A stretch of DNA of 45,428 bases, from positions 1-45,428 of the forward strand of contig JAIPJC010000009.1 of the NCBI GenBank assembly GCA_021734345.1, given 5' to 3'. The notes below the pieces were generated by a model. That model did no database searches and was not told the origin of the DNA. It worked only from the letters and a program-made list of their open reading frames with translations. Source of the stretch: Kiritimatiellales bacterium (GTDB lineage: Bacteria > Verrucomicrobiota > Kiritimatiellia > Kiritimatiellales > Pontiellaceae). The position numbers and the translations under genes are program-made. Positions 5,342 to 45,428 of the stretch are shown one piece after another (the first letter of the stretch is position 1; each line of letters begins with the position of its first letter).

Positions 5342-5350
5342 TGCGGTTCA

Positions 5351-6733
5351 TTACATCACCAGTTCGAAGCCGGGCTCCGAAGCCTCGCGATCGATCTTGT
5401 CCATGATGACGCCTAGCATTTGTTCGAGCAGCCGGATGCCACCGGTAAAGCCCGCCGTGGGGAAGTAGCTGTGGCCGATGCGGTCAAGGATCGGGAAGCC
5501 GTGGCGCACAAACGGAATGTTTTCATCGCGGGCGATGTATTTCCCGTAGGTGTTGCCGATGAGCAGGTCGACGGGTTCGTTCTTGATCCACTGGTGCATC
5601 AGGAACATGTCGGCCTGCTGGCCGTTCTTGAGGTTGAGGTTCGGAATCCGGTCGCCGACGATCTCGCGGATGCGCTTCTCGAACTTCTTGCCGGGCGTGC
5701 CGCTGACGATGTGCATCGGTAGCATGTTGAGATCCAGCAGGAACTCGGTGAGCGGGATGAGCTGGTCGGGGTCGCCGTAGAGCGCGACCTTCTTGCCGTA
5801 GAGGTACTGCGACATGTCGGCGATGACGTCGACCAGCCGCCCGCGTTCGGCTATGAACGAATCCGGAACCTCCACCTTGGCCGCCGAAGCCAGCGCCTGC
5901 ACGAAGCGGTCGGTGGCCGAGAGGCCGATTGGCAGATCGAGCACTTCGTACGGAACCTTGAAGTCGATGTCGAGTTGCTTGGCACCGGCTTCGGATGCAA
6001 AGGACCCGAGCGCCAACGTCTTGATGCTGTCGCCGACCGTCGCCAGTTCGGCCTGCGTAACGCCGCCGTCCGGATACATTTTGAACTCGCCGGTCTGCGG
6101 GGTATCGACCACGTCGGAGGTGTCGGGGAACAGGACGATGTTGACGCCCATCTCCTTGGCGATGCGCTTGATTTCGCGCATGTCGGAGGGTTCGACCCAA
6201 CCGGGGATGATGTTGACCTGGTCCTTGGGCGTGCCGGTTTTCGCCGCCAGACCGCGGACGATGCCGGCAACCATGTTGGAGAACCCGGTTACGTGCGAGC
6301 CGACATAGCTCGGCGTGTTGCAGAAGATCACCTTCTTGCCTGCCGGAATCCTGCCGTCGTCGCCCGCCTTCTGCGCGATCTGGTTGAGGTCGTCGCCGAT
6401 GGTTTCGGACAGGCAGGTGGTGTGCACGGCAATGATGTCCGGATCGTAGATGGTGAACATGTTCGCAATGGCCGCGAGCAGGTTGGCCTGTCCGCCGAAG
6501 ACCGAGGAGCCTTCGGTGAATGAGCTGGTTCCCGCCATGATCGGTTCCTTGTAGTGGCGCGTGAGCGCACTGCGGTGGTATGAGCAGCAGCCCTGCGATC
6601 CGTGCGAGTGCGGCAGGCATCCATGGACGCCCAGTGCGGCGTACATCGCGCCGACCGGCTGGCAGGTTTTCGCCGGGTTGATCGTTACTCCGTGGCGTTC
6701 CGCAACTTCTTTTGGTGTGTGTCGTAAGAGCAT
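5351..6733 (-). CDS. nifK: Molybdenum-iron nitrogenase beta chain NifK
   Basis: The beta subunit of dinitrogenase; with NifD it holds the P-cluster. The 460 residues carry the P-cluster cysteines at about 24 (KTCQPVGA), 49 (HGSQGC) and 107 (TTCLSETIGDD). The short N-terminus and the GCCSYHR and SSFTEGSSVFGG segments place it with the anaerobe/Group III type and not with the long proteobacterial NifK or with AnfK/VnfK. The start at 6733 is preferred over 6757 because GGAGAAGG lies directly upstream. It follows nifD by 16 bp. Confidence 0.95.
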   Translation of the reverse strand: MLLRHTPKEVAERHGVTINPAKTCQPVGAMYAALGVHGCLPHSHGSQGCCSYHRSALTRHYKEPIMAGTSSFTEGSSVFGGQANLLAAIANMFTIYDPDIIAVHTTCLSETIGDDLNQIAQKAGDDGRIPAGKKVIFCNTPSYVGSHVTGFSNMVAGIVRGLAAKTGTPKDQVNIIPGWVEPSDMREIKRIAKEMGVNIVLFPDTSDVVDTPQTGEFKMYPDGGVTQAELATVGDSIKTLALGSFASEAGAKQLDIDFKVPYEVLDLPIGLSATDRFVQALASAAKVEVPDSFIAERGRLVDVIADMSQYLYGKKVALYGDPDQLIPLTEFLLDLNMLPMHIVSGTPGKKFEKRIREIVGDRIPNLNLKNGQQADMFLMHQWIKNEPVDLLIGNTYGKYIARDENIPFVRHGFPILDRIGHSYFPTAGFTGGIRLLEQMLGVIMDKIDREASEPGFELVM

Positions 6734-6749
6734 TTTCCTTCTCCTTTGT

Positions 6750-8381
6750 TTAGGCAACGTATTCCGCGCGGAGGCCTTCGCCGGTGTCCGCTTTCTTGAG
6801 CCACGGGGCTTTCAGCTTCTTCCAGATGACGGTCGAGACCATCTTGTCGATATCGGTGTAGAAGTTGACCGCCCCCTTGAATCCGGCATAGGGACCGCCA
6901 TAGTCGTAGCTATGCAGCTGCTTGAGCGGAATCCCGGATTTCTGGATCACGTACTTCTCCTTGATGCCGGCGCAGAAGATGTCGGGCTTGTAGAACTCGA
7001 CGAGCTTCTCGGCTTCCCAGTGGGAGATGTCGTCCACGATCAACGAATTGTCGTTCATGTCCGGTGCCATGCCGCGGTAGTCGCTCACCTCAAGCCCCTT
7101 GGCCTTCAGCGCTTCCATTTTTTCTTCGGACGCGCGCGGGTTGAAGCGTTCGGGGTCGGCTTCGACCTTGATCTCTTCAATGTTGCGGCTGTCGGCATCC
7201 ACTTTGATCGTCGGCAGAACTTTGCGGCCCTCGTAGTCGTCGCGGTGCCCGAATTCATACCCGGCGGACACGGTGGCCATGCCGAGTTCCCGGAAGAGTT
7301 CCTGGTAGTGGTGCGCGCGGGATCCCCCCACGAACAGCATCGCCAGCTTGCCTTCGGTGCGGGTGCGGATGTCGTCGATGACCGCCTTGACCGCAGGCAT
7401 CTCGGCGGCAATCACTTCTTCGATTTTCGCCGTGAGGCCTTCGTCTTCGAAGTATTCCCCGACCTTGCGCAGCGCCTTGGCGGTGGAGTCCGCGCCGATG
7501 AAGTTCACCTTGATCCACGGGATGCCGTACTTGGTTTCCATCATCTCGGCCATGTAGTTGATCGAGCGGTGGCACATCACCAGGTTCAAATCGGCGGTGT
7601 GCGATTTTTCAAACGCGCCGATGGTGGAGTTGCCGCTGAAGGTGCAGACCACGTTGATCCCGCAGAGCTTGAACAGGCGGTCGATCTCGAAGCCGTCCCC
7701 GCCAATGTTGTATTCGCCGAGCAGGTTGATGTTGAACTTGCCTTCGGGTTTGGTGTCGTCCAGGCCGACCACATGCTTGAAGAGCTGGTTGTTGGCGATG
7801 TGGTGGCCGGCCGACTGGCTGACGCCCTTGTAGCCTTCGCAGCTGAAGCCGAATACGTTGCAGTCGCCGAGCTTCTCTTTCATTTCCCGCGACACCGCAT
7901 GCACGTCGTCGCCGATCAGGCCGACGGGGCAGGTGGAGAACACGCCGATGGCCTTGGGTTTGAAGATGTCGTAGATTTCCTGGATGGCTTCCTTCAGCTT
8001 CTTTTCGCCGCCGAAGACGATGTTGTCGTCCTGCATGTCGGTCGAGAAGCAGTAGGTCATGAAGTTGTCCCCGTCGGCGCCGGCGTCGGTCTGGTTGCGG
8101 CGGGTCAGCCACGCATAGAAGCTGCAGCCGATCGGGCCGTGCACCAGGTTGACGATGTCGCGCGTCGGCCCCAGCACCACGCCCTTGCATCCGGCATACG
8201 CGCAGCCGCGCTGCGTGATGATGCCCGGAATCGTGCGCACGTTGGACTGGATTTCCTGGTCCAGCTTCGGGTCGTTGATGATGATCGACTTGTCGCGCTT
8301 GCGCGCCACCTTCGTCGGGTATTTCGCGAGGATCTCCTCTTTCAGTTTCGATGGATCGGGTAGTTTTCTTCCTGTGTTCAT
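6750..8381 (-). CDS. nifD: Molybdenum-iron nitrogenase alpha chain NifD
   Basis: The catalytic alpha subunit, 543 residues. P-cluster ligands are Cys60, Cys86 and Cys151; the cofactor ligands are Cys270 (VMCHRS) and His490 (QLHSYDY). The substrate-site Gln and His are kept at 189 and 193 (SQSAGHH). An extra segment of about 60 residues near 383-445 is the insertion typical of clostridial/Group III NifD. All key residues are present, so the enzyme should be active. The start overlaps the nifI2 stop (ATGA). Confidence 0.96.
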   Translation of the reverse strand: MNTGRKLPDPSKLKEEILAKYPTKVARKRDKSIIINDPKLDQEIQSNVRTIPGIITQRGCAYAGCKGVVLGPTRDIVNLVHGPIGCSFYAWLTRRNQTDAGADGDNFMTYCFSTDMQDDNIVFGGEKKLKEAIQEIYDIFKPKAIGVFSTCPVGLIGDDVHAVSREMKEKLGDCNVFGFSCEGYKGVSQSAGHHIANNQLFKHVVGLDDTKPEGKFNINLLGEYNIGGDGFEIDRLFKLCGINVVCTFSGNSTIGAFEKSHTADLNLVMCHRSINYMAEMMETKYGIPWIKVNFIGADSTAKALRKVGEYFEDEGLTAKIEEVIAAEMPAVKAVIDDIRTRTEGKLAMLFVGGSRAHHYQELFRELGMATVSAGYEFGHRDDYEGRKVLPTIKVDADSRNIEEIKVEADPERFNPRASEEKMEALKAKGLEVSDYRGMAPDMNDNSLIVDDISHWEAEKLVEFYKPDIFCAGIKEKYVIQKSGIPLKQLHSYDYGGPYAGFKGAVNFYTDIDKMVSTVIWKKLKAPWLKKADTGEGLRAEYVA

Positions 8382-8788
8382 TCCAAGCCTCCTGACGAAT
8401 CAAGTACGGTTCCGCCCGAGGAACCGGTTGCGGTCTCTCCGGTGCGGACGCGGGTTGCTTCCAGAATCGGCAGCACGAAGATTTTTCCGTCGCCCGCGTT
8501 GCCGGTCTGGTTGGTTTTAATGATCGCTTCCACGGTGCGTTCGACCCAGTCGTCGGACACTACCACCGTGATCAGCCGCTTCGGCACCAGTCGCGGGCCG
8601 TCGCCGAGCTGGGCGATCGCCTCCGGCGCGCCCGCTTCGGCGCCGTGCAGGATGCGGTAGTCGACCAGCCCCTTGCCGCGGCCCAGCACCCGCCCCGTGG
8701 CGGTGAACGATGTGATTCCGGCGGCGTTCAACGCCCGCTTCGTGTCGTTGATCTTGTTCATCCGGATTACAGCCATTACTTCTTTCAT
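8378..8788 (-). CDS. nifI2: PII-like nitrogenase regulator NifI2
   Basis: A GlnB-family protein of 136 residues encoded between nifH and nifD. In Group III organisms NifI1 and NifI2 form a complex that switches nitrogenase off after ammonium addition, relieved by 2-oxoglutarate. The N-terminal strand (MKEVMAVIRMNK), the T-loop region and the GDGKIFVLPI segment fit PII. A Gly/Ser/Thr-rich tail follows. It is coupled to nifD by a 4-bp overlap. Confidence 0.92.
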   Translation of the reverse strand: MKEVMAVIRMNKINDTKRALNAAGITSFTATGRVLGRGKGLVDYRILHGAEAGAPEAIAQLGDGPRLVPKRLITVVVSDDWVERTVEAIIKTNQTGNAGDGKIFVLPILEATRVRTGETATGSSGGTVLDSSGGLE

Positions 8789-8817
8789 TGGAATCTCCTT
8801 TTCGGTGGGGCGGCGGG

Positions 8818-9150
8818 TTACGCCTCTTTGACGCCGGAGCTGATCGTATAGATCTCATCGACCGGGGAGATGAAGATCTTGCCGTCGCCGTAGTTGCCCT
8901 TTTCACTGGTCTTGGCGATGCCGAGCACGGCCCGCACCACGAACTCCTTGTCGCCCGCCGGCACAACGGTCATCAGCATTTCCTTTGGCAGCTCGTCGTA
9001 GGTCACTTCGCCGACCTTCAGGCCGCGCTGCTTGCCGCGGCCGCAGACCGGAACCTTGGTGACCGCCGGATAGCCGGCTTCGAACAGCGCCTTCATCACG
9101 GCATCGGCCTTCTCCGGGCGGACAATGGAACGAATTAAAAGCATGGACAT
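8818..9150 (-). CDS. nifI1: PII-like nitrogenase regulator NifI1
   Basis: A 110-residue GlnB-family protein, partner of NifI2 in post-translational control of nitrogenase. The sequence runs from MSMLLIRSIVRP through the T-loop region to NYGDGKIFISPVDEIYTI, the conserved PII C-terminal signature. The start at 9150 has AAGGAG 7 bases upstream; the ATG at 9189 reads through the nifH stop region and is rejected. The order nifH-nifI1-nifI2-nifD-nifK is the classical Group II/III arrangement. Confidence 0.92.
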   Translation of the reverse strand: MSMLLIRSIVRPEKADAVMKALFEAGYPAVTKVPVCGRGKQRGLKVGEVTYDELPKEMLMTVVPAGDKEFVVRAVLGIAKTSEKGNYGDGKIFISPVDEIYTISSGVKEA

Positions 9151-9181
9151 GGTTTTTCTCCTTGTTGTTTGGTTGGGTTGC

Positions 9182-10036
<855 letters not shown>

Positions 10037-31992: not shown

Positions 31993-33201
31993 TCAGGGGC
32001 GGAACGACTTGCGGTATTTTGCCGGCGTGATGCCCATTCCTTTGCGGAACTGCTTGATAAAGTAGCTCTGGTCGCCGAAGCCGGTTTCGTAGGCGATGTC
32101 GGTGCAGGACATTTCGCTGGTTTCGAGCAGGCGGCGGGCTTCCTGGATGCGGAGGTATTGGATGTTCTGCAGCGCGGTTTTCCCGGTGGATTCCTTGAGC
32201 AGATGGGCAATGCGGAAAGTACTGAGCCCGGCGGCGGCGGCCACGTTTTCGAGGGTGATGGGTTCGGTGTAGTTGGCGGCGATATAGTCCAGCGCCTTGC
32301 TCACGGCGGGGCTGACGGGGTTGACGCCTTGGAGAAAAATGCTGTTCATGAAGTCGTCGAGCGCTTCGAGCAGCACGTTGCAAAGGTCGTCGAAATCCTT
32401 GGTGTCGACAATCCGTTCGATCCACCCCATGTGCCGTTCGAGCAAGGGTTCCATCAAGGGGCTATCCTCGACGGCAGCACGCACGAGGTAGCCCATCATC
32501 TCGATGGCGCGCGCGCGCACGACGACTTGCTTCGGCGAATAGAGGAACATGGCGGCGAGCATCTTGTTGAAGATCTTGCGGGCTCCGGCGCGGTCGCCAA
32601 CCCGGATGAGGGAAAGCAGGATGCGCTCGTCGTCGTAGGGATAGGCGCGGTTCTGTTCGACCTTGCGCTGGTGGATCTCCTCGGCGATCTGCCGTTGCTG
32701 TATCATGCTTCCGCGGTTGCGCCGCAGCTGCACGGGGTTCCATCCGCTGTATTGGTAGAACAGCCGGAAAAGCTCGTCCGCCGCCTCGCGAATCCGTTCC
32801 TGTTCGAGGGCCGGCAGCTTCCGCACAAAGGCGTCCGCCTCCTTGCGGCTGGCACCTTCCGCCGAAAAATAATTCACGGCGGCATGGAGACTGGCCGGGT
32901 CGTCGTCGATCAGGATGGTGCCGCCGAGCAACCCGCCGCGCAGTTCGGAACCTTCGATCAGCGGCACGATCCAGCTCATCACCCCGGGGGCGACAAAGAA
33001 GGCCTGGGGTTCGCCCCACCGCACGCATTCCCCGAGGGCATGCGCCAAGGTGCGGTTTACGGCCGGCAGCTTCGCCACCGCGCCTACGGCCTCCGGCAGC
33101 TTCTGCACGCCTTGCGGATCCACCAGGCCGATGGAGAACCCATAGGCCGCACGGTAATCCTTGGCGACAGAATCAAAGAGGCGTTTTGACAAGATCGGCA
33201 T
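31993..33201 (-). CDS. PocR-domain AraC-family regulator of the one-carbon island
   Basis: A 402-residue regulator. The N-terminal part (about 1-170) resembles the PocR sensory domain (FSIGLVDPQGVQ; CVRWGEPQAFFVAPGVMSW), a fold used to sense small molecules, often hydrocarbon derivatives or methylated compounds. A helical linker follows, and the last 100 residues are an AraC double helix-turn-helix (ITLENVAAAAGLSTFRIAHL; CTDIAYETGFGDQSYFIKQF). The start at 33201 has GGAG 5 bases upstream. It is divergent from folD, whose promoter carries the first of four identical-layout elements. It is probably their activator. Confidence 0.88.
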   Translation of the reverse strand: MPILSKRLFDSVAKDYRAAYGFSIGLVDPQGVQKLPEAVGAVAKLPAVNRTLAHALGECVRWGEPQAFFVAPGVMSWIVPLIEGSELRGGLLGGTILIDDDPASLHAAVNYFSAEGASRKEADAFVRKLPALEQERIREAADELFRLFYQYSGWNPVQLRRNRGSMIQQRQIAEEIHQRKVEQNRAYPYDDERILLSLIRVGDRAGARKIFNKMLAAMFLYSPKQVVVRARAIEMMGYLVRAAVEDSPLMEPLLERHMGWIERIVDTKDFDDLCNVLLEALDDFMNSIFLQGVNPVSPAVSKALDYIAANYTEPITLENVAAAAGLSTFRIAHLLKESTGKTALQNIQYLRIQEARRLLETSEMSCTDIAYETGFGDQSYFIKQFRKGMGITPAKYRKSFRP

Positions 33202-33261
33202 ATCTACTCCATTGCTATGGCTTTTGAATATTAGGTTAAGCCGCATATTAATATCACAGAA

Positions 33262-33323
33262 CAGCAAGAACACAACAGTTCAAAGATTAAACATTCTATT
33301 GAAAACACGGTTGCGGACATAGG
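33262..33323 (+). promoter_or_regulatory. Regulon promoter element A (folD)
   Basis: CAGCAAGA at 33262, CA-G-TTC at 33276-33281 and TTCTATT at 33294-33300, then a -10-like CATAGG at 33318-33323. The same parts occur at the same spacings in elements B, C and D. TCTATT lies 17 bases before the -10, so it is the -35 region; the rest is just upstream, as for a class II activator site. Confidence 0.8.
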
Positions 33324-33381: not shown

Positions 33382-34281
33382 ATGCAACACTCCAATATCG
33401 ATGGCCGCGCAGTCGCGGAAAAGATGCTTGAGACCGTGCGGGCCGATGTGGCCGTGCTTAAAAAGGAGCACTGGTCGCCCACGCTGGTTTCCATCAAGAT
33501 CGGTGACAATCCGGCGGTGGACCGGTATGTGCGCAACCAAAAGCGCAATGCCGATCAGGTGGGAATCGAGTTTGTGGAGCGGCATTATCCGGCCGATATT
33601 TCGGCCGACGAGGTCAGTGCTGCAATCGTCCACCTCAATGTGGATCCCACCGTGACGGGTATCATTCTACAGCGGCCGGTTCCCGAACATATTCCGATCA
33701 AGGCCTTGCAGGAGACCATTCATCCGATGAAGGACGTCGAGGGGATGCATCCGAAATCCATCGGAAACATTGTCTACGGGGAGTTGGAGCTTGGCCCATG
33801 CACGGCGATGGCTTCGGTCGAGTTGCTGAAGAGCACCGGCCTTAAACTGAAAGGACTCGAAGCCACGGTGATCGGGCACTCCGAGATTGTCGGCAAACCG
33901 ATTGCCTTCCTGCTGATGGCCGAGGGCGCGACGGTGACCGTGTGCCACCACATGACACGCGAAGTGACGGTGCATTCGCGCCGTGCCGATGCGGTATTCG
34001 TTGCCGTTGGCAAGGCGGGGCTGCTCACCGGCGACATGATCAAGCCGGGGGCGGTGGTCATCGATATCGGTATCAACACGGTCGAGGGGGCGGACGGAAA
34101 ACCAAAGCTGGTTGGCGACTGCGACTATGAATCCTGCCTGAAAACCGCCGGCTGGATCACGCCCGTGCCCGGCGGTGTCGGGCCGGTAACGGTTGCCATC
34201 CTCATGCGCAATACCGTGATCGCCGCCCGCCGCCTGCAGCGGCAATACACGAAACAGTTCCAGGCCAATACGGTCGTCTAG
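33382..34281 (+). CDS. folD: FolD-like methylene-tetrahydrofolate dehydrogenase (variant active site)
   Basis: FolD oxidises methylene- to methenyl-tetrahydrofolate and normally hydrolyses it to formyl-tetrahydrofolate. The 299 residues cover the two FolD domains and end with the TPVPGGVGPVTVAILM signature. Variations stand out: the catalytic Lys of the Y-x-x-x-K motif is Gln53 (YVRNQKR), KDVDG is KDVEG (Glu120), PCTP is PCTA, and the cofactor loop GRS is GHS (residues 165-167). The conserved Gln97 is kept. It may be a dehydrogenase only, possibly NAD-linked; this is inference from family knowledge. It forms the first of four units sharing the same promoter element. Confidence 0.88.
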   Translation: MQHSNIDGRAVAEKMLETVRADVAVLKKEHWSPTLVSIKIGDNPAVDRYVRNQKRNADQVGIEFVERHYPADISADEVSAAIVHLNVDPTVTGIILQRPVPEHIPIKALQETIHPMKDVEGMHPKSIGNIVYGELELGPCTAMASVELLKSTGLKLKGLEATVIGHSEIVGKPIAFLLMAEGATVTVCHHMTREVTVHSRRADAVFVAVGKAGLLTGDMIKPGAVVIDIGINTVEGADGKPKLVGDCDYESCLKTAGWITPVPGGVGPVTVAILMRNTVIAARRLQRQYTKQFQANTVV

Positions 34282-34462: not shown

Positions 34463-36904
34463 ATGAAGAGACTCAAGCAAGTATTGGCCGATGCATCCGG
34501 GTTTGCGGTTATCGCCGAATTAACGTCGGGGCCGGGCTATGACATGGCTCCCATCAAGCAGTTCCTTTCCACATACAGGGAAGCCGGCGCGGGAGCCATT
34601 CCGCTTGGGTTCGACTTTGCCGGCATCGCCCTGCCGCAGAATCCCGGCGGCGTTTCCAATCTCGATCCGTCGGATGTGCTGGCGCAGCTGGATGCCACCG
34701 GGCTGCTCGACAACCTCGACTATATCCCGCATCTCAGCTGCAAGGACCACAACAAGTCCGCTCTGAGCTCGATGCTGATCGGCTACAGGCAGCGCGGCGT
34801 TGAAAGCATTCTCGCGCTGACCGGCGACAAGCCCGTGTCCGCCAAGGGCGTGTTCGAAGTCGAGTCGGTCGGGCTGCTGCAAATGGTCTCCAAGATGAAC
34901 CGTGCCGAAATCCTGAAGGCCAGCCCGGCAACGCTCGGCAAGGTGGCGCAGTTTTTTGCCGGTGCGGCGGTCTCGCCGTTCAAGTACACCGAACCCTCGC
35001 TGATGCAGCAATACTACAAGATGGAGAAGAAGGTCGCCGTTGGCGCAAGGTTCCTCATCACGCAGGTGGGCTGGGACTGGCGGAAGTCGCTTGAACTGAT
35101 GACCTATCTCGACGAGGCGAAATTGACTGTGCCTGTGATCGGCAACGTCTTTTTCCTGAGCACCGCAAACCCCGCGCCGCGGTTGATGCACGACGGCAAG
35201 CTGCCGGGCTGCTACGTGAGCGACGCCTTGCTCGAAAAGCTCAAGTCCGAATCGTTCGCGGCGCAGGTAGAGCGTGCGGCGCAGCAGGTGGCGATGTACC
35301 GGTCGATCGGCGCGGCCGGCGTGGACATCGGCGGCGTGCATGATTTTGAAACCTTCAAAACCATTCTTGCGCGTGCCGCGGAGATCGGCGACCGCTGGAC
35401 GGATTTCAAGGACAACCTCTACTGGCCACCGGCAGACGCCTACTATCTCTACGACGACGAAGGCCGCCGGAACGAAACGCCGAAAAACCAGCCGACCGCG
35501 CACGACCGCCGGTTCAACTTCATGCACAACACCCTGCTCGATCCCGACCGCAAGGGTTTCCACCTGCTGGAAAAAACCATGGAGAAGGCCGGGGCGAAAA
35601 AAAATCCCAACGGGTTGGCGGGGCGTACGCTCTTCGCCATGGAGCGGGCGATCAAGCATGCCGCGTTCGAGTGCGAAGAGTGCGGCGACTGTTTCCTCGC
35701 GGAAAACTTCGGCTACTGCACGATGGGCGGCTGCGCCAAGGGATTGGCCAATGCGCCGTGCGGCGATGCCAAGGTCGACGGAACCTGCGGCAACGAGAAG
35801 GGCGTGGTTTGCCGGGGCGAGCAGATCTATCTGGCCGCGAAGGCGCAGGAGGGCGGACTGGCGCGGCTGCGGAAAACGATCAACAGTCCGCGCATCGCTT
35901 CGCTGGAGCATAGTTCATCCATCCTCAACTATTTATTTGGAAAGGACCACACCATGAAAAATGCAATCATCACGATCGGCGAAGACATCCATGCTTCCAT
36001 CCCGAAGAACGGTGCCGTCATGCGCGAGCTGCATGCCCTCGGTGCAGGGGCCTACGAAAAAGAGAGTCCGCAACTCGATTATGTCCGCGCGCTGATTGAA
36101 AACCAGGCGGCGGAAGGCGCGGACTATCTCGCCATCAACGTCGATGCCTTCGGCGAGTCCGATCCGCAGCTTGCCGTCGATATCATGGTGGAATACGTGA
36201 AGCTCGTCCGCCAGTGGGGCGGCACGGTTCCGGCCTGCATCGACAGCAGCAACAACAACGTGCTGATGGCCGGGCTGAAGGAGTGGTACAACACGACCGA
36301 TCCGGTGAAGCCGCCGTTGGTGAACTCGATCAAGGTGTACTCGGCCGACACCATGATGCCGCTGAAAAAGGAATACGACTTTTCGTTTGTGGGCCTGCTG
36401 ATGAGCGAAGGCGCGCCGACCGGGCCGGGCGGCTCGCATTCCGTCGAGGAGCTCTACGCCATTGCAGAAGAAATTTTCGACCAAGCCATACTGCATGGAT
36501 TCAAGCCGGAAGAAATCTTCTTCGACTCGACCGTGTATCCGCTCGCCATCGATATGCCGATGCAGCCGGGCGTTCCCGGCTACACCTACCGCGCCTTCCA
36601 AACCATGAAGGCCATCAGGAGCAATCCGAAAATGAAGGGTGTGCATTTCTCGATGGGCGTGAGCAACTGCTGCCGCGACCTGCCCGGACGGAAGGTTGGC
36701 ATCTGCCGCGCCTATGTGGAAAAGGCGATGGAGTATGGCTTGGATGCGGGCATCGTGAACGCCGCCCATAAATACGGCGCAACGCCGGCCGACCCCAGTC
36801 TGGTCAAGCTGGTGGCCGCCTATGCCGAAATGGATGGCGACATGGACAAGACCAACGATGCCATCGAACTCATGGGCGATTTCTGCGACAGCCTGCGCAA
36901 GTAG
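34463..36904 (+). CDS. Fusion of methylene-H4F reductase, MTHFR_C domain and methyl-H4F methyltransferase
   Basis: An 813-residue protein in three parts. Residues about 1-310 are a MetF-type TIM barrel (methylene-tetrahydrofolate reductase). Residues about 315-465 are the MTHFR_C domain with cysteines at 404, 407, 410, 419, 424, 433, 442 and 450, of the type found in MetV. Residues 498-813 are a pterin-binding (DHPS-like) barrel as in methyl-tetrahydrofolate:corrinoid methyltransferases such as AcsE (DYLAINVDAFGES; ACIDSSNNNVLMAGL; NSIKVYS; NCCRDLPGR). It would couple methyl transfer from corrinoid to folate with oxidation of the methyl group, or the reverse. A ribosome-site-like GGAAAGGA precedes Met498. 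The start at 34463 has AGGAG upstream. Confidence 0.88.
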   Translation: MKRLKQVLADASGFAVIAELTSGPGYDMAPIKQFLSTYREAGAGAIPLGFDFAGIALPQNPGGVSNLDPSDVLAQLDATGLLDNLDYIPHLSCKDHNKSALSSMLIGYRQRGVESILALTGDKPVSAKGVFEVESVGLLQMVSKMNRAEILKASPATLGKVAQFFAGAAVSPFKYTEPSLMQQYYKMEKKVAVGARFLITQVGWDWRKSLELMTYLDEAKLTVPVIGNVFFLSTANPAPRLMHDGKLPGCYVSDALLEKLKSESFAAQVERAAQQVAMYRSIGAAGVDIGGVHDFETFKTILARAAEIGDRWTDFKDNLYWPPADAYYLYDDEGRRNETPKNQPTAHDRRFNFMHNTLLDPDRKGFHLLEKTMEKAGAKKNPNGLAGRTLFAMERAIKHAAFECEECGDCFLAENFGYCTMGGCAKGLANAPCGDAKVDGTCGNEKGVVCRGEQIYLAAKAQEGGLARLRKTINSPRIASLEHSSSILNYLFGKDHTMKNAIITIGEDIHASIPKNGAVMRELHALGAGAYEKESPQLDYVRALIENQAAEGADYLAINVDAFGESDPQLAVDIMVEYVKLVRQWGGTVPACIDSSNNNVLMAGLKEWYNTTDPVKPPLVNSIKVYSADTMMPLKKEYDFSFVGLLMSEGAPTGPGGSHSVEELYAIAEEIFDQAILHGFKPEEIFFDSTVYPLAIDMPMQPGVPGYTYRAFQTMKAIRSNPKMKGVHFSMGVSNCCRDLPGRKVGICRAYVEKAMEYGLDAGIVNAAHKYGATPADPSLVKLVAAYAEMDGDMDKTNDAIELMGDFCDSLRK

Positions 36905-36928: not shown

Positions 36929-37780
36929 ATGGAAACAGCAATCACCGATGCATACATGCCGGCCGAGATGGCGAAACGGGCGGAAGCCTCGGCCATCCGG
37001 AAAGCCAACCGCAGCTTCATCGATTCGTTTTTCCTGGCCATCCAGGCCGGGTCGTTCATCGCCTTCGGCGCGGCGTTCTTCACGCTTACGATCCACGACT
37101 CGGCGCTGGGCGTCGGCCTGACCCGGTTGATTGGCGGCATGACGTTTTCGCTGGGGCTGATCTTCGTCATCATCGCGGGAGCCGATCTGTTTACCGGCGA
37201 TACGCTGATGGTGATGGCCTGCCTGAGCCGGAAGATCACGTGCCGCCAAATGCTGCGCAGCTGGGTGTTTGTGTTGTTTGGCAATCTGGCCGGGTCGCTG
37301 GTGATCGTATGGCTTATTTCACTGAGCGGCCATTGGCTGGGCCACGGCGGCGCGGTGGGCGCCGCGGCTTTGTCCATCGCCAACGACAAGGTCAACATGA
37401 CGTTTGTGCAGGCGCTCGCGAGCGGGATGCTGTGCAACATCCTGGTCTGCCTCGCCATTTGGCTCTGCTTCAGCAGCCGCTCGGTGACCGACAAGATCCT
37501 GTCGATCGTTCCGCCCATCACCGCGTTTGTGGCCCTGGGTCTCGAACATTCGATTGCCAACATGTATTTCATCCCGGCCGGACTCGTGTTGAAGCACAGC
37601 CCGCAGATTATCGCCCTGCTCAACGGGGCGGATCTGTCGAATCTCACGGTGCATGGTTTCGTGTTCAGGAACCTGGTTCCGGTCGTGATCGGCAACATGG
37701 TCGGTGGCGCGATATTTATTGGCTTAGTGTACTGGATTCTTTACCTTCGCAAACCTACTGAAAATGGAGACAACCCATGA
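36929..37780 (+). CDS. focA: Formate/nitrite-family channel (FocA-like)
   Basis: A 283-residue inner-membrane protein with six helices and the family signatures: the [12 protein letters not shown] loop and the [11 protein letters not shown] loop with the channel His (His209 in FocA). It moves formate, nitrite or hydrosulfide; beside formyl-tetrahydrofolate synthetase formate is most likely. It overlaps fhs by 4 bp (ATGA), so it is translationally coupled. In an oxidative pathway it would export formate; import is also possible. Confidence 0.9.
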
Positions 37781-39540
37781 AACTTGATCCAACCAAAATG
37801 GCGGACTGGCAGATTGCCGAAGCCGCCGAACAGAACATCAAACCGATCCAGGAAATTGCCGCCAAACTCGGATTGAAGCCGGGCGAGCTGATCCCCATGG
37901 GACGGAACGTCGCCAAGATCGATTACAACAAAACCTGGCAGCGCCTCAAAAACGCGCCCATCGGCAAGTATGTCGACGTCACCGCCATCACGCCCACTCC
38001 GCTCGGCGAAGGCAAGACCACCACAACCATGGGGCTCGTCGAAGGCCTCGGTGTGATCGGCAAGAGGCCGGTCGGGGCCATCCGCCAGCCCAGCAGCGGC
38101 CCGACCTTCAACATCAAAGGCTCCGCCGCCGGCGGCGGTCTAGCGCAGTGCATACCGCTCGCCCCGTTTTCGCTCGGGCTCACTGGCGATTTCGATGCCA
38201 TCACCAACGCGCACAATCTTGCGATGGTGGCGCTGACCGCCCGCATGCAACACGAAAGCAACTACGACGATGCGAAGCTGAAGCAGCTCGGCCTCAAGCG
38301 GCTGGATGTCGATCCCGAACGCGTACAGTTGAAGTGGGCGATGGACTTCTGCGCCCAGGCGCTGCGCAACATTACCATCGGCCAAGGCGGCCATATGGAC
38401 GGCTTCGAAATGCAGTCCGGCTTCCAGATCACCGTCTCCAGTGAAATCATGGCCATCCTGGCCGTGGCCAGCAGCTTGAAGGACATGCGCGAACGCATCG
38501 GCAAGATGGTGGTGGCCTACAGCCGCAGCGGTAAGGAAGTGACCACCGCCGACCTCGAAGTGGACGGCGCCATGACCGCCCTGATGGTCGACGCGCTCAA
38601 TCCCAATCTCGTGCAGACCATTGAAGGCAATCCGGTCCTCGTCCATGCCGGTCCCTTCGCCAACATTGCCATTGGCCAAAACTCGGTCATCGCCGACATG
38701 CTTGGCATCCGCATGGGCGACTACCTCGTAACGGAAAGCGGGTTTGCCGCCGACATCGGCTTTGAAAAATTCTGGAACCTGAAGTGCCGCTACTCCGGGC
38801 TAAAACCAGATGCTGTCGTGATTGTCGCCACGGTGCGCGCCCTTAAGATGCATGGCGGGGGGCCATCCGTAAAACCAGGCAAGCCGCTCGACTCCGCCTA
38901 CACGGAAGAAAACCTCGGACTGCTCGAAGAGGGTTGCGCCAATCTGGTTGCGCATATCAACATCGTCAAGCAAAGCGGGGTCAGTCCGGTGGTCTGCATC
39001 AACGGGTTCTACACCGACACCCAGGCCGAACACGATCTCGTCCGGCGCATCGCCGAACAAAACGGTGCGCGCTGCGCGGTATCCGAGCATTGGCTCAAGG
39101 GGGGTGAAGGCGCGGTCGAGTTGGCCGAGGCCGTCGTCGCCGCCTGCGAAGAGGAACACCATTTCGAATACCTCTATGATCTCGACATGCCGTTCAAGGA
39201 TCGCGTCTACACGATCGCCACCAAAATCTATGGTGCATCGGGCGTTGATTGGTCGGAGCTGGCCGAAAAGAAAATCGCACTTTACGAGGCCGACCCCGAA
39301 GTCAAAAAAATGGGTATGTGCATGGTGAAGACCCACCTCAGCCTGTCGCACAACCCGGACTTCAAGGGCGCGCCGAAAGACTGGATCCTGCCGATCCGCG
39401 ATGTGCTCATCTATAAGGGTGCAGGTTTTGTCGTGCCGGTTGCCGGCGACATCAAGCTGCTGCCGGGCACGGGATCGAATCCGGGATTCCGCCGGATCGA
39501 CGTGGATGTGGATACGGGCAAGGTGACAGGATTGTTCTAG
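37777..39540 (+). CDS. fhs: Formate-tetrahydrofolate ligase
   Basis: It interconverts formyl-tetrahydrofolate + ADP + phosphate with formate + tetrahydrofolate + ATP. The 587 residues carry the P-loop-like [16 protein letters not shown] and the [19 protein letters not shown] signature. The length is somewhat over the usual 555-560. Run towards formate, it makes ATP by substrate-level phosphorylation, as in methyl-oxidising anaerobes; run the other way, it fixes formate. The gene ends the metF-fusion/focA/fhs unit. Confidence 0.95.
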
Positions 39541-39659: not shown

Positions 39660-39701
39660 ATACGGAAGATGGAGTTGAACGTTTAAACGGAGGAAATGGT
39701 T

Positions 39702-40328
39702 ATGGCCAAAAATGAAGCATTGTTTGAAGCAGTACTAAAAGGCAAACGCAAGGATGTTGCCGAAATCGTCCAGCAGGAAGTGGACAAGGGAACCAACGTT
39801 GCCGAAATCCTGATGGGTTCCATGGTACCGGCGATGGCGGAGATCGGCGACCGCTTTTCACGCAACGAAGCCTATGTTCCGGAAATGCTGATTGCCGCAC
39901 GCGCCATGCAGGCGGGACTGAACATTCTCGATCCGCTGCTTACGCAGGCCGGCCACAAGCCGCTCGCCAAGGTCGCCATCGGAACCGTCAAGGGCGACCT
40001 GCACGACATCGGCAAGAACCTCGTCGGCATGATGCTCAAGGGTGCCGGGTTTGAAGTGATGGATCTGGGCGTCGACTGCGACATTGAAAAATACAAGGAA
40101 GCCGTCGAAAACGGTGCCCAATGCGTTCTGCTGAGCGCACTGCTCACCACCACCATGCCCTACATGAAGGAAGTCGTTTCCGGCTTGGCAGGCTGTGGTG
40201 CGAAGATCCTCATCGGCGGGGCTCCGGTCACGCAGCAGTATGCAGACGAGATCGGTGCGGACGGCTACTCCAACGATGCCAACACCGCGGTGAAGGCCAC
40301 CAAGGTTGTGCTGGGTCTTGCAGCCTGA
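39702..40328 (+). CDS. Methyltransferase corrinoid protein (MtaC/MtbC/MttC-like)
   Basis: A 208-residue carrier that shuttles the methyl group on cobalt. A helical cap of about 85 residues is followed by the B12-binding fold with the cobalt-ligating His101 in GDLHDIGKN, the SALLTTTM loop and GGAPVT. The start at 39702 has GGAGGA 8 bases upstream; the ATG at 39696 is too close to it. The next gene encodes its probable reactivase. The partner that loads it with methyl groups is not in the window. Confidence 0.93.
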   Translation: MAKNEALFEAVLKGKRKDVAEIVQQEVDKGTNVAEILMGSMVPAMAEIGDRFSRNEAYVPEMLIAARAMQAGLNILDPLLTQAGHKPLAKVAIGTVKGDLHDIGKNLVGMMLKGAGFEVMDLGVDCDIEKYKEAVENGAQCVLLSALLTTTMPYMKEVVSGLAGCGAKILIGGAPVTQQYADEIGADGYSNDANTAVKATKVVLGLAA

Positions 40329-40352: not shown

Positions 40353-41993
40353 ATGTCCGTAATCTTCAACCTTGAAGGACGGTCGGTCGCTGTCGAATCC
40401 GACAGCGACCGTACTGTTTTGGAGCTGGCCCGCAAAGCCGGGTGGCACATCGATGCCAAGTGCGGCGGCAGGGGATCGTGCGCCAGCTGCAACGTGTTGC
40501 TCGGTGCCGGCCGCTACCGGGTCTTTGGCGAAGAAATCGAAGTGGCTCCCGACATGCGCCGCGAGGTGCTCTCCTGCCAAACCCGCATCCTTAGTGAAAC
40601 GGCTGAAATCTTCATTCCACGGGCCTCCATTCTTTCGTTCGACGGTGCGCGCATTGCCGATGAAATGGATATTCCCGAACACACCTTCAGTCCGCTTTTT
40701 CCGGACGGCTACGGCTTGGCCGTCGATATTGGAACCACCACCGTTGTCGCCGCCCTGATCGACCTGCGCGACGGAACCATCGTCAGCCGCGAATCGCTCT
40801 ACAACCAGCAGATCCTCAAGGCCGACGATGTTGTTTCACGCATCTCGCTTTGCAGCGAAGCGGGCAACCTCGAAGCACTGCAGGAGCTGGTGATTGCGCA
40901 CACGCTCAACCCGCTGGTCCACAAGCTATGCGACGGAACGGGCGTGGCCAGGGAACGCATCGTCCACTGCGCCGTATCCGGCAACACGGTGATGATGCAT
41001 ATCTTCTTCGGCGTGTCGCCCGTCAGCATCGGCGTAATTCCCTTCAAGCCCGTCAGCCGGACATTCGAGGCCAAGGCGCATGCGCTCCGTATCGACATCG
41101 GACCCGATGCCCGCGTCGAAGCCATCCCCGCCATTTCCGGCTACGTCGGCGGCGACATCACCTCCGATATCCTCGCTTCCAATCTCTGGAACCGCGATGG
41201 CCTGACCGTACTGATCGACATCGGCACCAACGGCGAAATGGTTGCTTGCCTCGACGGGCAAATGAGTGCTTGTGCCACCGCAGCCGGCCCGGCTTTCGAA
41301 GGTGCCGGACTGCTGCACGGTACGCGCGCCGCCAGCCGCGCCATCGATACCATCGCGTTCGACGAAAGCCTCGACTTCCAAATCACCGTCATTGGCGACC
41401 CCAATCCTATGGGGCTATGCGGCTCCGCCATCATTGACTTCATCGCCTGCGGCTTCCGCTGCGGACTGATCAATATGCTCGGCCGCTACGATGTCGAACT
41501 GCTCAAATCCAGAAGTTGCCACGAAACCGTTGCCGGCATGCACGCCTGCGTGCTGGTGCAGGCCGAAGATTCCGCCACCGGCGAAACGATCACGGTTACC
41601 GAATACGACATCGCCGAAATCCTAAAAGCCAAGGCCGCGATCTATTCCGGGCTAAAGACCCTGCTGGCCGAGCTTGGTAAAACCGTGCGCGACATCGACC
41701 GCGTCATTCTCGCTGGGGGATTCGCCAAGCACATCAACCTCGAAAACGCCATTTGCATCGGACTGCTTCCCGATATTGGAACCGGAAAATACGAAGTGAT
41801 CGGCAACGGTTCGCTCGCCGGGGCCTCCCTCGCGGTGCTCGACCGGTCCGCGGCGCAGACCTACCTCGAAATCATCGAACGGCCACAGATCGTCACGCTC
41901 AACAAAACCGCCACTTTCACCAACTATTTCCAGGAGGCGCTCGCCATTCCCAACCTTGACGAAGACGACTTTCCGAGCATCGTAAAACCATGA
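40353..41993 (+). CDS. Corrinoid-protein reductive activase, RACE/RamA-like (DUF4445)
   Basis: It restores inactive Co(II) corrinoid protein to Co(I) with ATP and an electron donor. The 546 residues have an N-terminal plant-type [2Fe-2S] domain with Cys37, Cys43, Cys46 and Cys75, a linker, and a large ASKHA ATPase-like domain (VDIGTTTVVAALI; LIDIGTNGEM; ILAGGFAKHI). This is the RACE type with [2Fe-2S], not the archaeal RamA with [4Fe-4S] clusters. It lies between the corrinoid protein and DUF1638 genes and overlaps the latter (ATGA). Confidence 0.92.
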   Translation: MSVIFNLEGRSVAVESDSDRTVLELARKAGWHIDAKCGGRGSCASCNVLLGAGRYRVFGEEIEVAPDMRREVLSCQTRILSETAEIFIPRASILSFDGARIADEMDIPEHTFSPLFPDGYGLAVDIGTTTVVAALIDLRDGTIVSRESLYNQQILKADDVVSRISLCSEAGNLEALQELVIAHTLNPLVHKLCDGTGVARERIVHCAVSGNTVMMHIFFGVSPVSIGVIPFKPVSRTFEAKAHALRIDIGPDARVEAIPAISGYVGGDITSDILASNLWNRDGLTVLIDIGTNGEMVACLDGQMSACATAAGPAFEGAGLLHGTRAASRAIDTIAFDESLDFQITVIGDPNPMGLCGSAIIDFIACGFRCGLINMLGRYDVELLKSRSCHETVAGMHACVLVQAEDSATGETITVTEYDIAEILKAKAAIYSGLKTLLAELGKTVRDIDRVILAGGFAKHINLENAICIGLLPDIGTGKYEVIGNGSLAGASLAVLDRSAAQTYLEIIERPQIVTLNKTATFTNYFQEALAIPNLDEDDFPSIVKP

Positions 41994-42736
41994 AATTCAA
42001 ATTGATCAGCTGCGAAATATTTTTCCGGGAGATGGAGTTCCTGTTGGAACAGTCGCCCCACAAGATCGACGTGGAGTTCATGCAGAAAGGGCTGCACGAT
42101 ATTCCCGCCGATGAAATGCTGAAGCGCTTGCAGGCGCAGGTCGATGCCGCGGCGGAGCAGGAGTACGACACGATCCTCCTCGGCTACGGACTCTGCAACA
42201 ATGGACTAAACGGACTGAAGTCGCGCGGCGTCCAGCTGGTGCTGCCGCGCGCCCACGATTGCATTACCCTGTTCCTCGGCAGCCGCGCGCGCTACCAGGA
42301 CTATTTCTTTTCGCATCCCGGCACCTACTTCAAAACCACCGGATGGATCGAGCGCGACAAGATCGCCGATGAGCTCAAGCAGCTCAGCATCCCGAACCAG
42401 ACGGGCATGGACATGAGCTACGCCGAACTCGTCGAGCAATACGGCGAAGACAACGCCGAGTATCTGTGGGAAGAACTCTGCAACACCGAAAAAAACTATT
42501 CGCAAATCACCTTCATAGAAATGGGCGTCGAGCCCGACGATTCGTTCGAAAAGATCGCCAAGGACGAGGCCGTTTCCAAACATTGGAATTTTGAAAAGGT
42601 TCCCGGCGACCTCGGCCTGCTCCGGCGGTTGCTTTCCGGAGACTGGAACCCCGACGACTTCCTTGTTGTTCCACCGCGCCGGGAAATTGCAGCCAACCAT
42701 ACCGAGCACATTGTCGAGCTCAAGTCCGGCAACTAA
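41990..42736 (+). CDS. DUF1638 protein
   Basis: A 248-residue protein with the family signature LLGYGLCNNGLNGL, PRAHDCITLFLGS and the PGTYFKTTGW segment. DUF1638 genes are commonly found beside corrinoid methyltransferase genes in methanogens and anaerobic bacteria; the biochemical role is unknown. Conserved Cys and His (AHDC) could bind a metal. It overlaps the RACE gene by 4 bp and ends this unit. Confidence 0.88.
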   Translation: MKFKLISCEIFFREMEFLLEQSPHKIDVEFMQKGLHDIPADEMLKRLQAQVDAAAEQEYDTILLGYGLCNNGLNGLKSRGVQLVLPRAHDCITLFLGSRARYQDYFFSHPGTYFKTTGWIERDKIADELKQLSIPNQTGMDMSYAELVEQYGEDNAEYLWEELCNTEKNYSQITFIEMGVEPDDSFEKIAKDEAVSKHWNFEKVPGDLGLLRRLLSGDWNPDDFLVVPPRREIAANHTEHIVELKSGN

Positions 42737-42841: not shown

Positions 42842-44218
42842 ATGACCGGGAAAAATCTACTTTTACAGGCAGTACAAGGAAAAGAAACCGAACGCCCCGC
42901 ATGGCTTCCCTTTGTCGGATGCCATGGCGGGTTCCTCATCGGCAAGACCGCGACGGAATATCTCCAGTCGGCGGAGTTGATGGTTGAGGGGCTGAAGAAA
43001 GCAAAAGCGTTATATAAACCGGATGGGCTTCCGGTGGCCTTCGACCTTCAGATCGAAGCCGAAATTCTCGGTTGCAAGCTCCATTGGGCGGACGAAGTCC
43101 CCCCGGCAGTAACCAGCCACCCGTTGGCGCTGGGCAAGAAGATTTCCGATCTGCCGGAACTCGATGAAACCAAGGGGCGCTTTCCGATCATTGTCCAGAC
43201 GCTTGAAGCCTTGAAAACCGAGATGGGCGGCGATACAGCGCTTTACGGTTTGATCTGCGGCCCATTCACCCTCGCGCTCCATCTGCTCGGCAACGACATC
43301 TTCCTCGATATGTACGATGAGGAGGACTACGTGCTCGAAGTGATCGACTACTGCGCCGACATTTGCATCAAGTCGTCCAACATCTATCTGGACCACGGCG
43401 CGGACGTGATCGGGGTGGTTGATCCGATGACCAGCCAGATTTCTCCAAGCCATTTCGAACAGTTCGTCACGCCGGCCATGAACAAGGTGTTCGACCACAT
43501 CCGCGCACGTGGCGGGATCTCCTCCATTTTCGTCTGCGGCGACGTGACCCGCAATCTAGAGGTGATGGCCAAGACCCGCGCCGACAACATTTCGGTCGAT
43601 GAACAGATCGACATGGCCCAACTGCGCGGACTTTGCGAGGCGGAGAAAAAGTCGTTCGGCGGCAATATCAAGTTGACCGCCGTGCTCCTGCTCGGCGACG
43701 AGGACGACGCGAAAATGGAAGTACTCGACATCATGGAAAAGAGCGGCAACAAGGGCTTCATTCTGGCTCCGGGCTGCGATCTGCCCTACGCGGTTCCTTC
43801 CCAAAACCTGGTTGCGGTTGCAAGCATGGTTCATGATCCCTATGCCCGCGAAGCTGCGAAGTCGCTTCAGACCAAGGCCTCCGACTCGTTCGACGATATC
43901 GAGCTTCCGGACTATCATGGCGCCCGCGCCGTGGTGGCCGATGTCATCACGCTCGACTCCACCTCCTGCGCGCCCTGTCAATATATGATGGAGGCGGTTC
44001 AAAAGGCGGCCGACAAGGCGATGGTCAAGGTCTGGATCAACGAACACAAGATCAAGGTGCGCGAAGGCATCGGCATGATGGTCAAACTGGGTGTGAAGAA
44101 CCTGCCGACCATCTGCATCAACGGCGAGCCGACCTTCGCATCGATCATTCCCGATCAGGCCACGTTGGTAAAAGCCATCGAGCAGGCCGCCCTGCCGAAA
44201 ATGTCGGTCACTTCCTAA
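42842..44218 (+). CDS. MtaA/uroporphyrinogen-decarboxylase-like protein fused to a thioredoxin-like domain
   Basis: A 458-residue protein. Residues about 1-345 form a URO-D barrel of the MtaA/CmuA methyltransferase type. Residues about 362-455 form a thioredoxin-like domain with Cys376 and Cys379 (STSCAPCQYM) and a cis-Pro-like NLPTICINGEP. Zinc-dependent MtaA proteins use H-x-C and a later Cys; here the first position is Phe230 (SIFVCGD) while Cys232 and Cys312 (APGCDLP) are kept. It may thus use another zinc ligand or be a non-classical methyltransferase. It heads the last unit and has GGAG upstream. The substrate is unknown. Confidence 0.85.
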   Translation: MTGKNLLLQAVQGKETERPAWLPFVGCHGGFLIGKTATEYLQSAELMVEGLKKAKALYKPDGLPVAFDLQIEAEILGCKLHWADEVPPAVTSHPLALGKKISDLPELDETKGRFPIIVQTLEALKTEMGGDTALYGLICGPFTLALHLLGNDIFLDMYDEEDYVLEVIDYCADICIKSSNIYLDHGADVIGVVDPMTSQISPSHFEQFVTPAMNKVFDHIRARGGISSIFVCGDVTRNLEVMAKTRADNISVDEQIDMAQLRGLCEAEKKSFGGNIKLTAVLLLGDEDDAKMEVLDIMEKSGNKGFILAPGCDLPYAVPSQNLVAVASMVHDPYAREAAKSLQTKASDSFDDIELPDYHGARAVVADVITLDSTSCAPCQYMMEAVQKAADKAMVKVWINEHKIKVREGIGMMVKLGVKNLPTICINGEPTFASIIPDQATLVKAIEQAALPKMSVTS

Positions 44219-44249: not shown

Positions 44250-45152
44250 ATGATTCCCATTTGCCTGATCACGGGTTTTCTAGGAACGGGTAAGACCACG
44301 CTGCTCAAGCGCATCGTGGCTGAAAACCGCGACCGGAAATGGATCTATCTGATCAACGAGTTTTCCGCGCTCGATGTGGACGGGGCGATTGTCTCGGAGG
44401 GGAATCCGGACGTGGTTTCCATCCCCGGCGGCAGCATCTTCTGCAAGTGCCTCGTGACCGAGTTCATCCGGCAGATGGCGCAGATCCGCTGGCAACATCC
44501 GGATGCCGAAGGCGTGGTGATCGAAGCGAGCGGCATGGCCGATCCGCGCGTGATCGCCGACATGCTGAAAGAGACAGGACTCGGCGACTATTTCGAATTG
44601 GCCAATATCGTCAGTATCGTCGAGCCGCGCAGTTTTCTGCGCCTCATCCACACGCTGCCGAATATTATCCATCAGGTTGAAGCGGCCGACATCGTTCTCT
44701 TGAACAAGTGCGACTTGTACGGCGGGGAAAAACTGGCGGAGATGGAAACGGCAATCCGCAACATAAAACCGGCGGCCAACATCGTCCGCTGCGTCCATGC
44801 TGAAGTCGATTTTCCAATCTTTGGCGGCGGAATCGACCACGGCATGCTGCACGGGGAATATGCCAAGTGCCGCGATCCTCGCTTCGCCTCCTTCTCGACC
44901 ATCTTCGACCATCCCGTCGATCCTGCGGTGGTTGAAAAACTCATTCTGGGAAACGAGGATTCGATCTATCGCGTCAAAGGCTATCTCCAAACCTTGGAAG
45001 GCCCTGTCTACTTCGACTATTCCAAGGCCGGATTTTCCATTTCCCCATCAGGGCCGAAAAAGGAATACGGACTGGCATGGGTCGTTCGAGGTGGAGCCGA
45101 AGAATATTTGAAACCAACAGAACTGTGCGCTATCCTGCGCGGCAACCATTAA
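44250..45152 (+). CDS. CobW/COG0523 G3E GTPase
   Basis: A metal-chaperone-type GTPase of 300 residues: Walker A GFLGTGKTT near the start, a variant of the metal-binding C-x-C-C motif (FCKCLV), the EASGMADP segment and the NKCD guanine-specificity motif. COG0523 proteins insert zinc or cobalt-type metals into target enzymes. Between an MtaA-like gene and a homocysteine methyltransferase gene, both families of zinc-site enzymes, loading one of these is plausible but inferred. A short C-terminal domain follows after residue 200. Confidence 0.85.
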   Translation: MIPICLITGFLGTGKTTLLKRIVAENRDRKWIYLINEFSALDVDGAIVSEGNPDVVSIPGGSIFCKCLVTEFIRQMAQIRWQHPDAEGVVIEASGMADPRVIADMLKETGLGDYFELANIVSIVEPRSFLRLIHTLPNIIHQVEAADIVLLNKCDLYGGEKLAEMETAIRNIKPAANIVRCVHAEVDFPIFGGGIDHGMLHGEYAKCRDPRFASFSTIFDHPVDPAVVEKLILGNEDSIYRVKGYLQTLEGPVYFDYSKAGFSISPSGPKKEYGLAWVVRGGAEEYLKPTELCAILRGNH

Positions 45153-45165
45153 TCAGGAGCGGCAA

Positions 45166-45428
45166 ATGCACGATACCATCGCGATGCTATTGAAAGAACG
45201 TCCGGTCATAATCGACGGAGCTTGGGGAACCGAACTTCAGAAACAAGGATTGAAGCCCGGCGAATCGCCGGAAGCGCTGAATCTGGAACGACCGGAACTC
45301 GTCGAAGCCGTCGCCGCGTCGTATGTGGCGGCCGGCAGCCCGATCATCATCACCAACACCTTTGGCCGGACCCGCTTCACGCTCGAACGCCACCGGCTGG
45401 CCGGCAACGTGGCCGAGGTGAACCGCAT
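45166..45428 (+). CDS. Homocysteine S-methyltransferase-family protein (5' part)
   Basis: The frame is open from an ATG at 45166 (AGGAG upstream) to the right edge, 87 complete codons. It begins like the Hcy-binding domain of MetH/BHMT (VIIDGAWGTELQKQGL; LNLERPELVEAVAASYVAAG; IITNTFGRTR). The zinc Cys residues would be beyond the edge. It may be a stand-alone methyl acceptor/donor enzyme for the corrinoid protein or the first domain of a larger one. Confidence 0.85.
   Translation, partial: MHDTIAMLLKERPVIIDGAWGTELQKQGLKPGESPEALNLERPELVEAVAASYVAAGSPIIITNTFGRTRFTLERHRLAGNVAEVNR

Follow-up and report, generated by a model that had tools for sequence, protein, structure and literature searches.

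A reductase-methyltransferase fusion of methyl-folate metabolism with a conserved putative internal start in Kiritimatiellales and Planctomycetota

We describe a single gene of a Kiritimatiellales bacterium that joins an enzyme predicted to make methyl-folate to one predicted to pass the methyl group to a B12 protein. The gene lies in a contig of 45,428 nucleotides, hereafter called the window. The fusion itself is confirmed, and the join is old and common to dozens of bacteria from water and sediment. Its frame contains a conserved second start at the first codon of the methyltransferase (MeTr) half, and we regard the locus as likely to be a gene within a gene, encoding the fusion and a free MeTr, with the internal start under nucleotide-level selection in two phyla and dropped where the MeTr active site has been lost. 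We further consider it probable that the fusion is a bifunctional enzyme feeding a split cobalamin-dependent methionine synthase; here the two activities, the direction of flux and the role in methionine synthesis of the window organism are predictions, while the fusion, the folds, the conserved residues, the gene set, the conservation of the internal start and its codon bias are observed. MTHFR, MTHFR_C, MeTr and split methionine synthase are each already known singly. No report of the three-part fusion or of its conserved internal start was found in the open-access literature that we searched.

Results

Three domains in one frame

The earlier note on this DNA had read the gene as one 813-codon frame with three domains in the order MTHFR, MTHFR_C and methyltransferase, and this reading was borne out (Table 1). 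Read on the plus strand, the frame runs uninterrupted for 813 codons up to its stop, and AGGAG lies 4 bases 5' of the main start, ATG 34463. The three expected Pfam matches were found in order, all above their curated cut-offs: MTHFR at residues 84-263 (PF02219, 66.8 bits, cut-off 24), DUF5981, the MTHFR C terminal, at 389-463 (PF12225, 48.8 bits, cut-off 23) and Pterin_bind at 539-736 (42.7 bits). An AlphaFold2 model, for which the input alignment held 50 proteins from the window and the loci described below, reached a mean pLDDT of 88.5 and a pTM of 0.87. When the model was compared with solved MTHFRs, residues 2-307 matched 1v93 (Z 24.2, 3.2 A); compared with solved MetH folate modules and MeTr proteins, residues 499-812 matched 3k13 (Z 28.2, 274 residues, 2.7 A).

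Table 1. Features of the fusion gene and its surroundings, in window coordinates
Feature	Position	Strand	Basis
PocR-domain AraC-type regulator, divergent from the operon	31993..33273	-	
FolD, methylene-THF dehydrogenase/cyclohydrolase	33382..34281	+	domain and family models
Fusion gene, 813 aa, MTHFR + MTHFR_C + predicted methyl-THF:corrinoid methyltransferase	34463..36904	+	frame, Pfam, model
MTHFR (MetF) barrel, residues 1-307	34463..35383	+	PF02219, fold match 1v93, conservation
MTHFR_C / MetV-type Cys-rich domain, residues 389-463	35627..35851	+	PF12225, invariant columns
Conserved junction SSILNYLFGKDHT	35915..35953	+	alignment with unfused homologues
Internal Shine-Dalgarno-like GGAAAGGA, 7 bases before ATG 35954	35939..35946	+	
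MeTr half, residues 498-813 (316 aa from internal ATG 35954)	35954..36904	+	Pterin_bind, fold 499-812
FocA-like formate transporter	36929..37780	+	domain and family models
Formate-THF ligase (Fhs)	37777..39540	+	NF010032, 1043 bits, above cut-off
Corrinoid protein, MtgC/MtbC-like (B12-binding cap + B12 domain)	39696..40328	+	domain and family models
RACo/RamA-type (Fer2 + RACo domains) ATP-dependent corrinoid reactivator	40353..41993	+	domain and family models
DUF1638 protein	41990..42736	+	domain model
UroD-superfamily (MtaA/CmuA-like) methyltransferase + C-terminal thioredoxin-like domain	42842..44218	+	domain and family models
CobW-family GTPase	44250..45152	+	domain and family models
Stand-alone homocysteine S-methyltransferase (PF02574), start only, ends with the contig	45166..45428	+	

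Within the MTHFR half, E19, D122 and Q201 are conserved; D122 and Q201 are invariant in the alignment of fusions and align with Asp120 and Gln183 of E. coli MetF (LTGDKP/LRGDLP and ITQVGWD/ITQFFFD). The MTHFR_C domain carries eight invariant cysteines (404, 407, 410, 419, 424, 433, 442 and 450). Two 4Fe-4S clusters have been predicted for the MetV of Clostridium ljungdahlii (PMC8760232), and two Fe-S clusters would suit the eight invariant cysteines found here.

The assignment of residues 498-813 to a methyltransferase held as well: this half has the methyl-THF methyltransferase fold and keeps the pterin-site residues of MeTr, N559, D594, N621, D688 and N735 aligning with MeTr N45, D75, N96, D160 and N199. 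The alignment included the structure of the N199A mutant, 2ogy; in the Moorella enzyme, as its structures establish, D75, N96, D160 and N199 bind the pterin and its N5. In fold and pterin-site residues the half thus resembles both AcsE/MeTr (1f6y, 2e7f) and the folate modules of MetH (3k13, 5von), and its Z scores against them, 26.7-28.2, are a near tie. The match of the model to the MetH folate modules covers 271-274 residues and runs to 809-812; the match to AcsE covers 232-236 residues and ends at 775. On a tree of MeTr halves, AcsE and the MetH folate module sit on long branches, which makes their placement unreliable. The best NCBIfam match is the generic PRK07535 (91.6 bits). The AcsE-like identity and acetogen context implied by the earlier note did not survive: the AcsE model NF040758 scored 55 bits, far below its cut-off of 370, and acetyl-CoA synthase (ACS, PF03598) was not found in the window's genome (G000, 84.8% complete) or in its genus mates G087 (95%) and G228 (94%).

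Distribution and origin of the join

A scan of 84,980 genomes for homologues recovered the same architecture at 70 loci in two phyla, at 48-78% identity. The junction is spanned in 67 of them, the remaining three being interrupted by contig ends, and none of the 70 has an internal stop. As these loci come from many independent MAG projects and include some complete chromosomes, a sequencing or assembly error that fused two genes is ruled out. Four loci belong to Kiritimatiellales (74-78% identity) and nearly all others are named Planctomycetota, mostly Phycisphaerae and Sedimentisphaerales (48-68%). Only 6 of 294 genomes in an even sample of Planctomycetota, the phylum of locus L030, carry the fusion, which is hence a lineage trait and not universal. 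Among Verrucomicrobiota, the phylum of the window, it occurs in two genus mates (75 and 70%), and distant fusions are present at 35-41%, those of a few distant genomes at 38-41%. The Kiritimatiellales fusion is nested within those of Planctomycetota on the tree, suggesting that the gene passed between the phyla.

In Verrucomicrobiota, MTHFR-MTHFR_C proteins that are not fused terminate in the motif S.WANxFLGRDH; the fusions retain it as SSILNYLFGKDHT and then continue into MeTr. At loci L088, L089, L092, L093, L095 and L097, an unfused MTHFR-MTHFR_C gene has a MeTr gene as its immediate downstream neighbour in the same orientation (domains of the L097 pair were checked by Pfam). The shared end motif and these adjacent pairs indicate that two neighbouring genes probably became joined end to start, and the pairs lend Rosetta-stone support to a functional pairing of the two enzymes.

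A conserved putative start inside the fusion

The earlier note was right that the junction is fused and overlooked a putative start at Met498. The MeTr half opens with ATG 35954, which is preceded by a Shine-Dalgarno (SD)-like sequence (Table 1). Among the aligned fusions, 53 of 68 retain this ATG, and 43 of the 53 also have the SD core. The other internal Met columns of the window's protein, which share the same genes and the same phylogeny, served as control: the five-base core is present at 70% in the Met498 column and at no more than 4% in every other. The mean pairing energy of the internal start (-5.7) compares with that of the best main-start candidates (-5.8). Met column 428 is similarly low (-5.4) but lacks the SD core, and column 628 has a four-base core in 48% and the five-base core never.

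The SD is supplied by a Lys or Arg codon at position 494. Where the residue is Lys, AAG accounts for 89% (the highest of 41 Lys columns, which average 58%), and where it is Arg, AGG or AGA is used in 15 of 15 (rank 1 of 34 Lys/Arg columns, mean 29%); CGN is found at this codon only in rows without the internal ATG. Overall, an SD is observed at 81% of internal starts, against 40% under a codon-usage null whose highest value among 300 draws was 60%. A six-codon scan for synonymous constraint along the whole gene gave no signal at the junction, windows from codons 489-494 ranking 84-245 of about 800; since the signal is that of codon 494 alone, the case for an SD rests on the codon-specific and Met-column tests. 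RNA structure near the internal start is weak (z +1.34), which is compatible with an open site and no proof of one.

Along the tree, the internal ATG switches between present and absent about six times. It is missing from the distant fusions and from the basal row L044, so that it looks gained after the fusion and not left over from separate genes. Genome G640 carries a 317-aa stand-alone MeTr gene (locus L173), 56% identical, that begins exactly at the equivalent of Met498 with its own AAGGGAG upstream; the N half of the fusion was not found in this genome at E 1e-60 or better, and the gene is placed inside the fused group with support 92.

Loss of the ATG goes together with decay of the methyltransferase. 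Ten rows (L051, L055-L061, L063 and L064) lack N621, and all of them but L056 lack N735 too; the internal ATG is absent from 10 of 10, while N621 and N735 are retained in every ATG-bearing row that reaches those positions. Of 67 aligned loci, 13 are in genomes with ACS; the ATG is missing from 10 of these 13 versus 5 of the 54 in genomes where no ACS was found, counts that follow shared ancestry. The decayed MeTr halves remain fused and full length, most of them in genomes with ACS, and may have a structural or folate-binding role; their lineage is a natural control. Two genomes have two different copies of the fusion: G317 (L046 and L070/L155) and G340 (L036 and L051), where one copy is intact with the ATG and the other decayed without it.

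We infer that a free MeTr initiated at Met498 is very probably produced besides the fusion. The competing explanation, that only the full-length protein is made and that the SD and ATG are a relic of two once separate genes or follow incidentally from a conserved Lys-Asp pair, seems to us the less likely one, though it has substance: the GKDHT motif is kept at the protein level even in rows without the ATG, the unfused homologues terminate in that motif too, and the synonymous-constraint scan is silent at the junction. Shared ancestry could also account for part of the codon bias, but the within-gene controls share that ancestry; in both tests no column of its class is as extreme as codon 494, and the SD frequency lies beyond every null draw. 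The joint loss of the ATG and the MeTr catalytic residues and the stand-alone gene that starts exactly at Met498 also speak against the competing explanation, and the lack of the ATG in distant fusions and basal L044 makes gain after fusion likelier than a relic. Two products would allow one MeTr to be tethered to the reductase and others to act as free subunits, and an internal start would be a means by which a fusion retains a free copy of one partner.

Gene neighbourhood

The operon around the fusion (Table 1) has a close counterpart at L162. Both contain the fusion, formate-THF ligase, the MtgC-like protein, RACo, DUF1638, the UroD-thioredoxin protein, CobW and homocysteine methyltransferase, the last being complete at L162 (296 aa from the first ATG); FolD and FocA are in the window operon and not in that of L162. 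The pairing of a UroD-superfamily domain with a thioredoxin-like domain is unusual. A PocR-type regulator also stands beside the fusion in L001-L004 and L110. On the Planctomycetota contig of L070/L155, such a regulator, homocysteine methyltransferase and DUF1638 are on one strand, and the corrinoid protein, formate-THF ligase, FolD and the fusion on the opposite one. Orthologues of the corrinoid protein in Planctomycetota carriers are 48-56% identical. In most Planctomycetota the neighbours of the fusion (ThiE, TrkH, glycosidases, heme genes) are uninformative for function. In L046 and L059, both Planctomycetota, NuoF-like and formate dehydrogenase alpha-like genes come after formate-THF ligase and the fusion (domain search for L046), an arrangement that amounts to a compact formate-to-methyl module.

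Candidate parts of a split methionine synthase

A split methionine synthase of five parts was identified in Phaeobacter inhibens by mutant fitness, namely corrinoid, pterin and homocysteine proteins, a RamA-like activator and a DUF1638 relative needed by the system (PMC5764234), and mutants of Ruegeria pomeroyi confirm the corrinoid and pterin genes (PMC12478193). The window operon and L162 likewise encode the corrinoid protein, homocysteine methyltransferase, RamA-like activator and DUF1638 as separate genes, while the pterin methyltransferase, unlike in that definition, is not a gene of its own in the window and is fused to MTHFR. A B12-binding_2 protein is present in 32 of 32 carriers, a PF02574 gene, in many cases stand-alone, in 31 of 32, and RACo in 44 of 48. 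The MetH activation domain was not found in 34 of 48 carrier genomes searched, nor MetE in 27 of 32; many of these genomes are incomplete MAGs, in which single absences are weak. The complete chromosome of G311 has the fusion, one PF02574 gene (291 aa), one MtgC-like protein and RACo, and neither a MetH activation domain nor MetE was found on it, leaving the separate parts as its sole candidates. Several carriers lack both MetH and MetE, and for Phycisphaerae genomes without a detected copy of either the fusion offers a candidate methionine synthase part. MetE, MetH, or PF02574 frames as long as PRK08645 proteins occur in several other carriers. Contig C139 of the window's own genome (L072/L073) encodes a complete MetH (1257-aa frame) followed by a PRK08645-like homocysteine methyltransferase/MTHFR frame, so this genome has two parallel sets of methionine-related genes and the fusion operon would not be its sole methionine route. 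The case for methionine synthesis is weaker here, and the operon of this organism may work in a different methyl economy, such as one linked to formate.

Discussion

In the scheme that we favour, the MTHFR barrel would reduce methylene-THF to methyl-THF, with electrons probably arriving via the Cys-rich MTHFR_C domain, and the MeTr barrel would transfer the methyl group to the MtgC-like corrinoid protein, whose gene lies 2.8 kb downstream; the acceptor there would be Co(I), kept reduced by RACo. In Planctomycetota the methyl group would go on to homocysteine on a separate homocysteine methyltransferase, completing a split cobalamin-dependent methionine synthase in which the folate module and the enzyme that supplies its methyl-folate form one chain. 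In the window operon, FolD, formate-THF ligase and the formate channel could link formate to the methyl level. Channelling between the fused active sites, the main proposal of the earlier note, is a plausible candidate property, of which fusion alone is no demonstration; consecutive enzymes of methyl-group synthesis in one chain offer a direct test bed for methyl-folate channelling.

Known systems share parts of this scheme. The separate corrinoid protein, homocysteine methyltransferase, RamA/RACo activator and DUF1638 recall the Phaeobacter and Ruegeria systems (MtgC, MtgD, MtgE, RamA-like DUF4445 and DUF1638; PMC5764234, PMC12478193), in which a pterin methyltransferase feeds a corrinoid protein. 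MtgD is separate there, whereas here it is fused behind MTHFR-MTHFR_C, and the operon adds FolD, formate-THF ligase and FocA. Homocysteine S-methyltransferase/MTHFR proteins of the PRK08645 (YitJ) type also fuse MTHFR to a methionine-synthase-like module, but in those MTHFR sits behind the homocysteine module and here in front of the folate module; PRK08645 scored 92.2 bits against the fusion, below its cut-off of 453, the MTHFR part alone matching. The MTHFR barrel with a Cys-rich MTHFR_C resembles acetogen MetVF of types II-IV, in which, by contrast, MetV and MetF are separate subunits and a MeTr domain is not described (PMC8760232). Unlike in the AcsE system, the operon partner of the fusion is an MtgC-like protein and not a corrinoid iron-sulphur protein.

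Two other functions have to be weighed against a role in methionine synthesis. The operon might run in reverse as a methyl-catabolic route, in which the UroD-family or another donor enzyme loads the corrinoid protein, MeTr passes the methyl group to THF, MTHFR oxidises methyl-THF, FolD and formate-THF ligase yield formate and ATP, and FocA exports the formate. A UroD/MtaA-like gene, a formate channel, formate-THF ligase, FolD and a PocR-type sensor regulator in one stretch fit such catabolism to formate too, as does the complete MetH elsewhere in the genome. The methionine scheme itself has the weakness that in most Planctomycetota the pieces of the split synthase are scattered, and their putative partnership rests on co-occurrence. 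We nevertheless hold the reverse route to be rather improbable. The homocysteine methyltransferase inside the operon points to methionine, the UroD gene does not adjoin the operon in G228, and a search of the window's genome and its genus mates found no MttB-type methyl-donor methyltransferase (PF06253). Oxidation of methyl-THF by MTHFR is, besides, uphill when a suitable acceptor is lacking.

The other alternative places the fusion in the methyl branch of the Wood-Ljungdahl pathway, with the MeTr half feeding a corrinoid iron-sulphur protein and thence ACS. It draws on the MetV-type C-terminal domain, on the ACS-bearing genomes among the aligned loci and on L059, where the fusion lies in a Wood-Ljungdahl cluster with AcsD. 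That very cluster has a separate AcsE-like gene, and the MeTr half fused there lacks the equivalents of N96, D160 and N199; the AcsE cut-off is missed widely, and ACS was found neither in the window's genome nor in genus mates that are 94-95% complete. This reading is therefore highly improbable, and acetogenesis is rejected for the window's genome.

Elsewhere in the window, the minus strand of positions 807-10006 carries nitrogenase genes: a NifH-type gene at 9182-10006, a component-1-type gene at 5351-6757 and two more, at 6750-8381 and 807-2225, that by eye are probably nitrogenase genes too.
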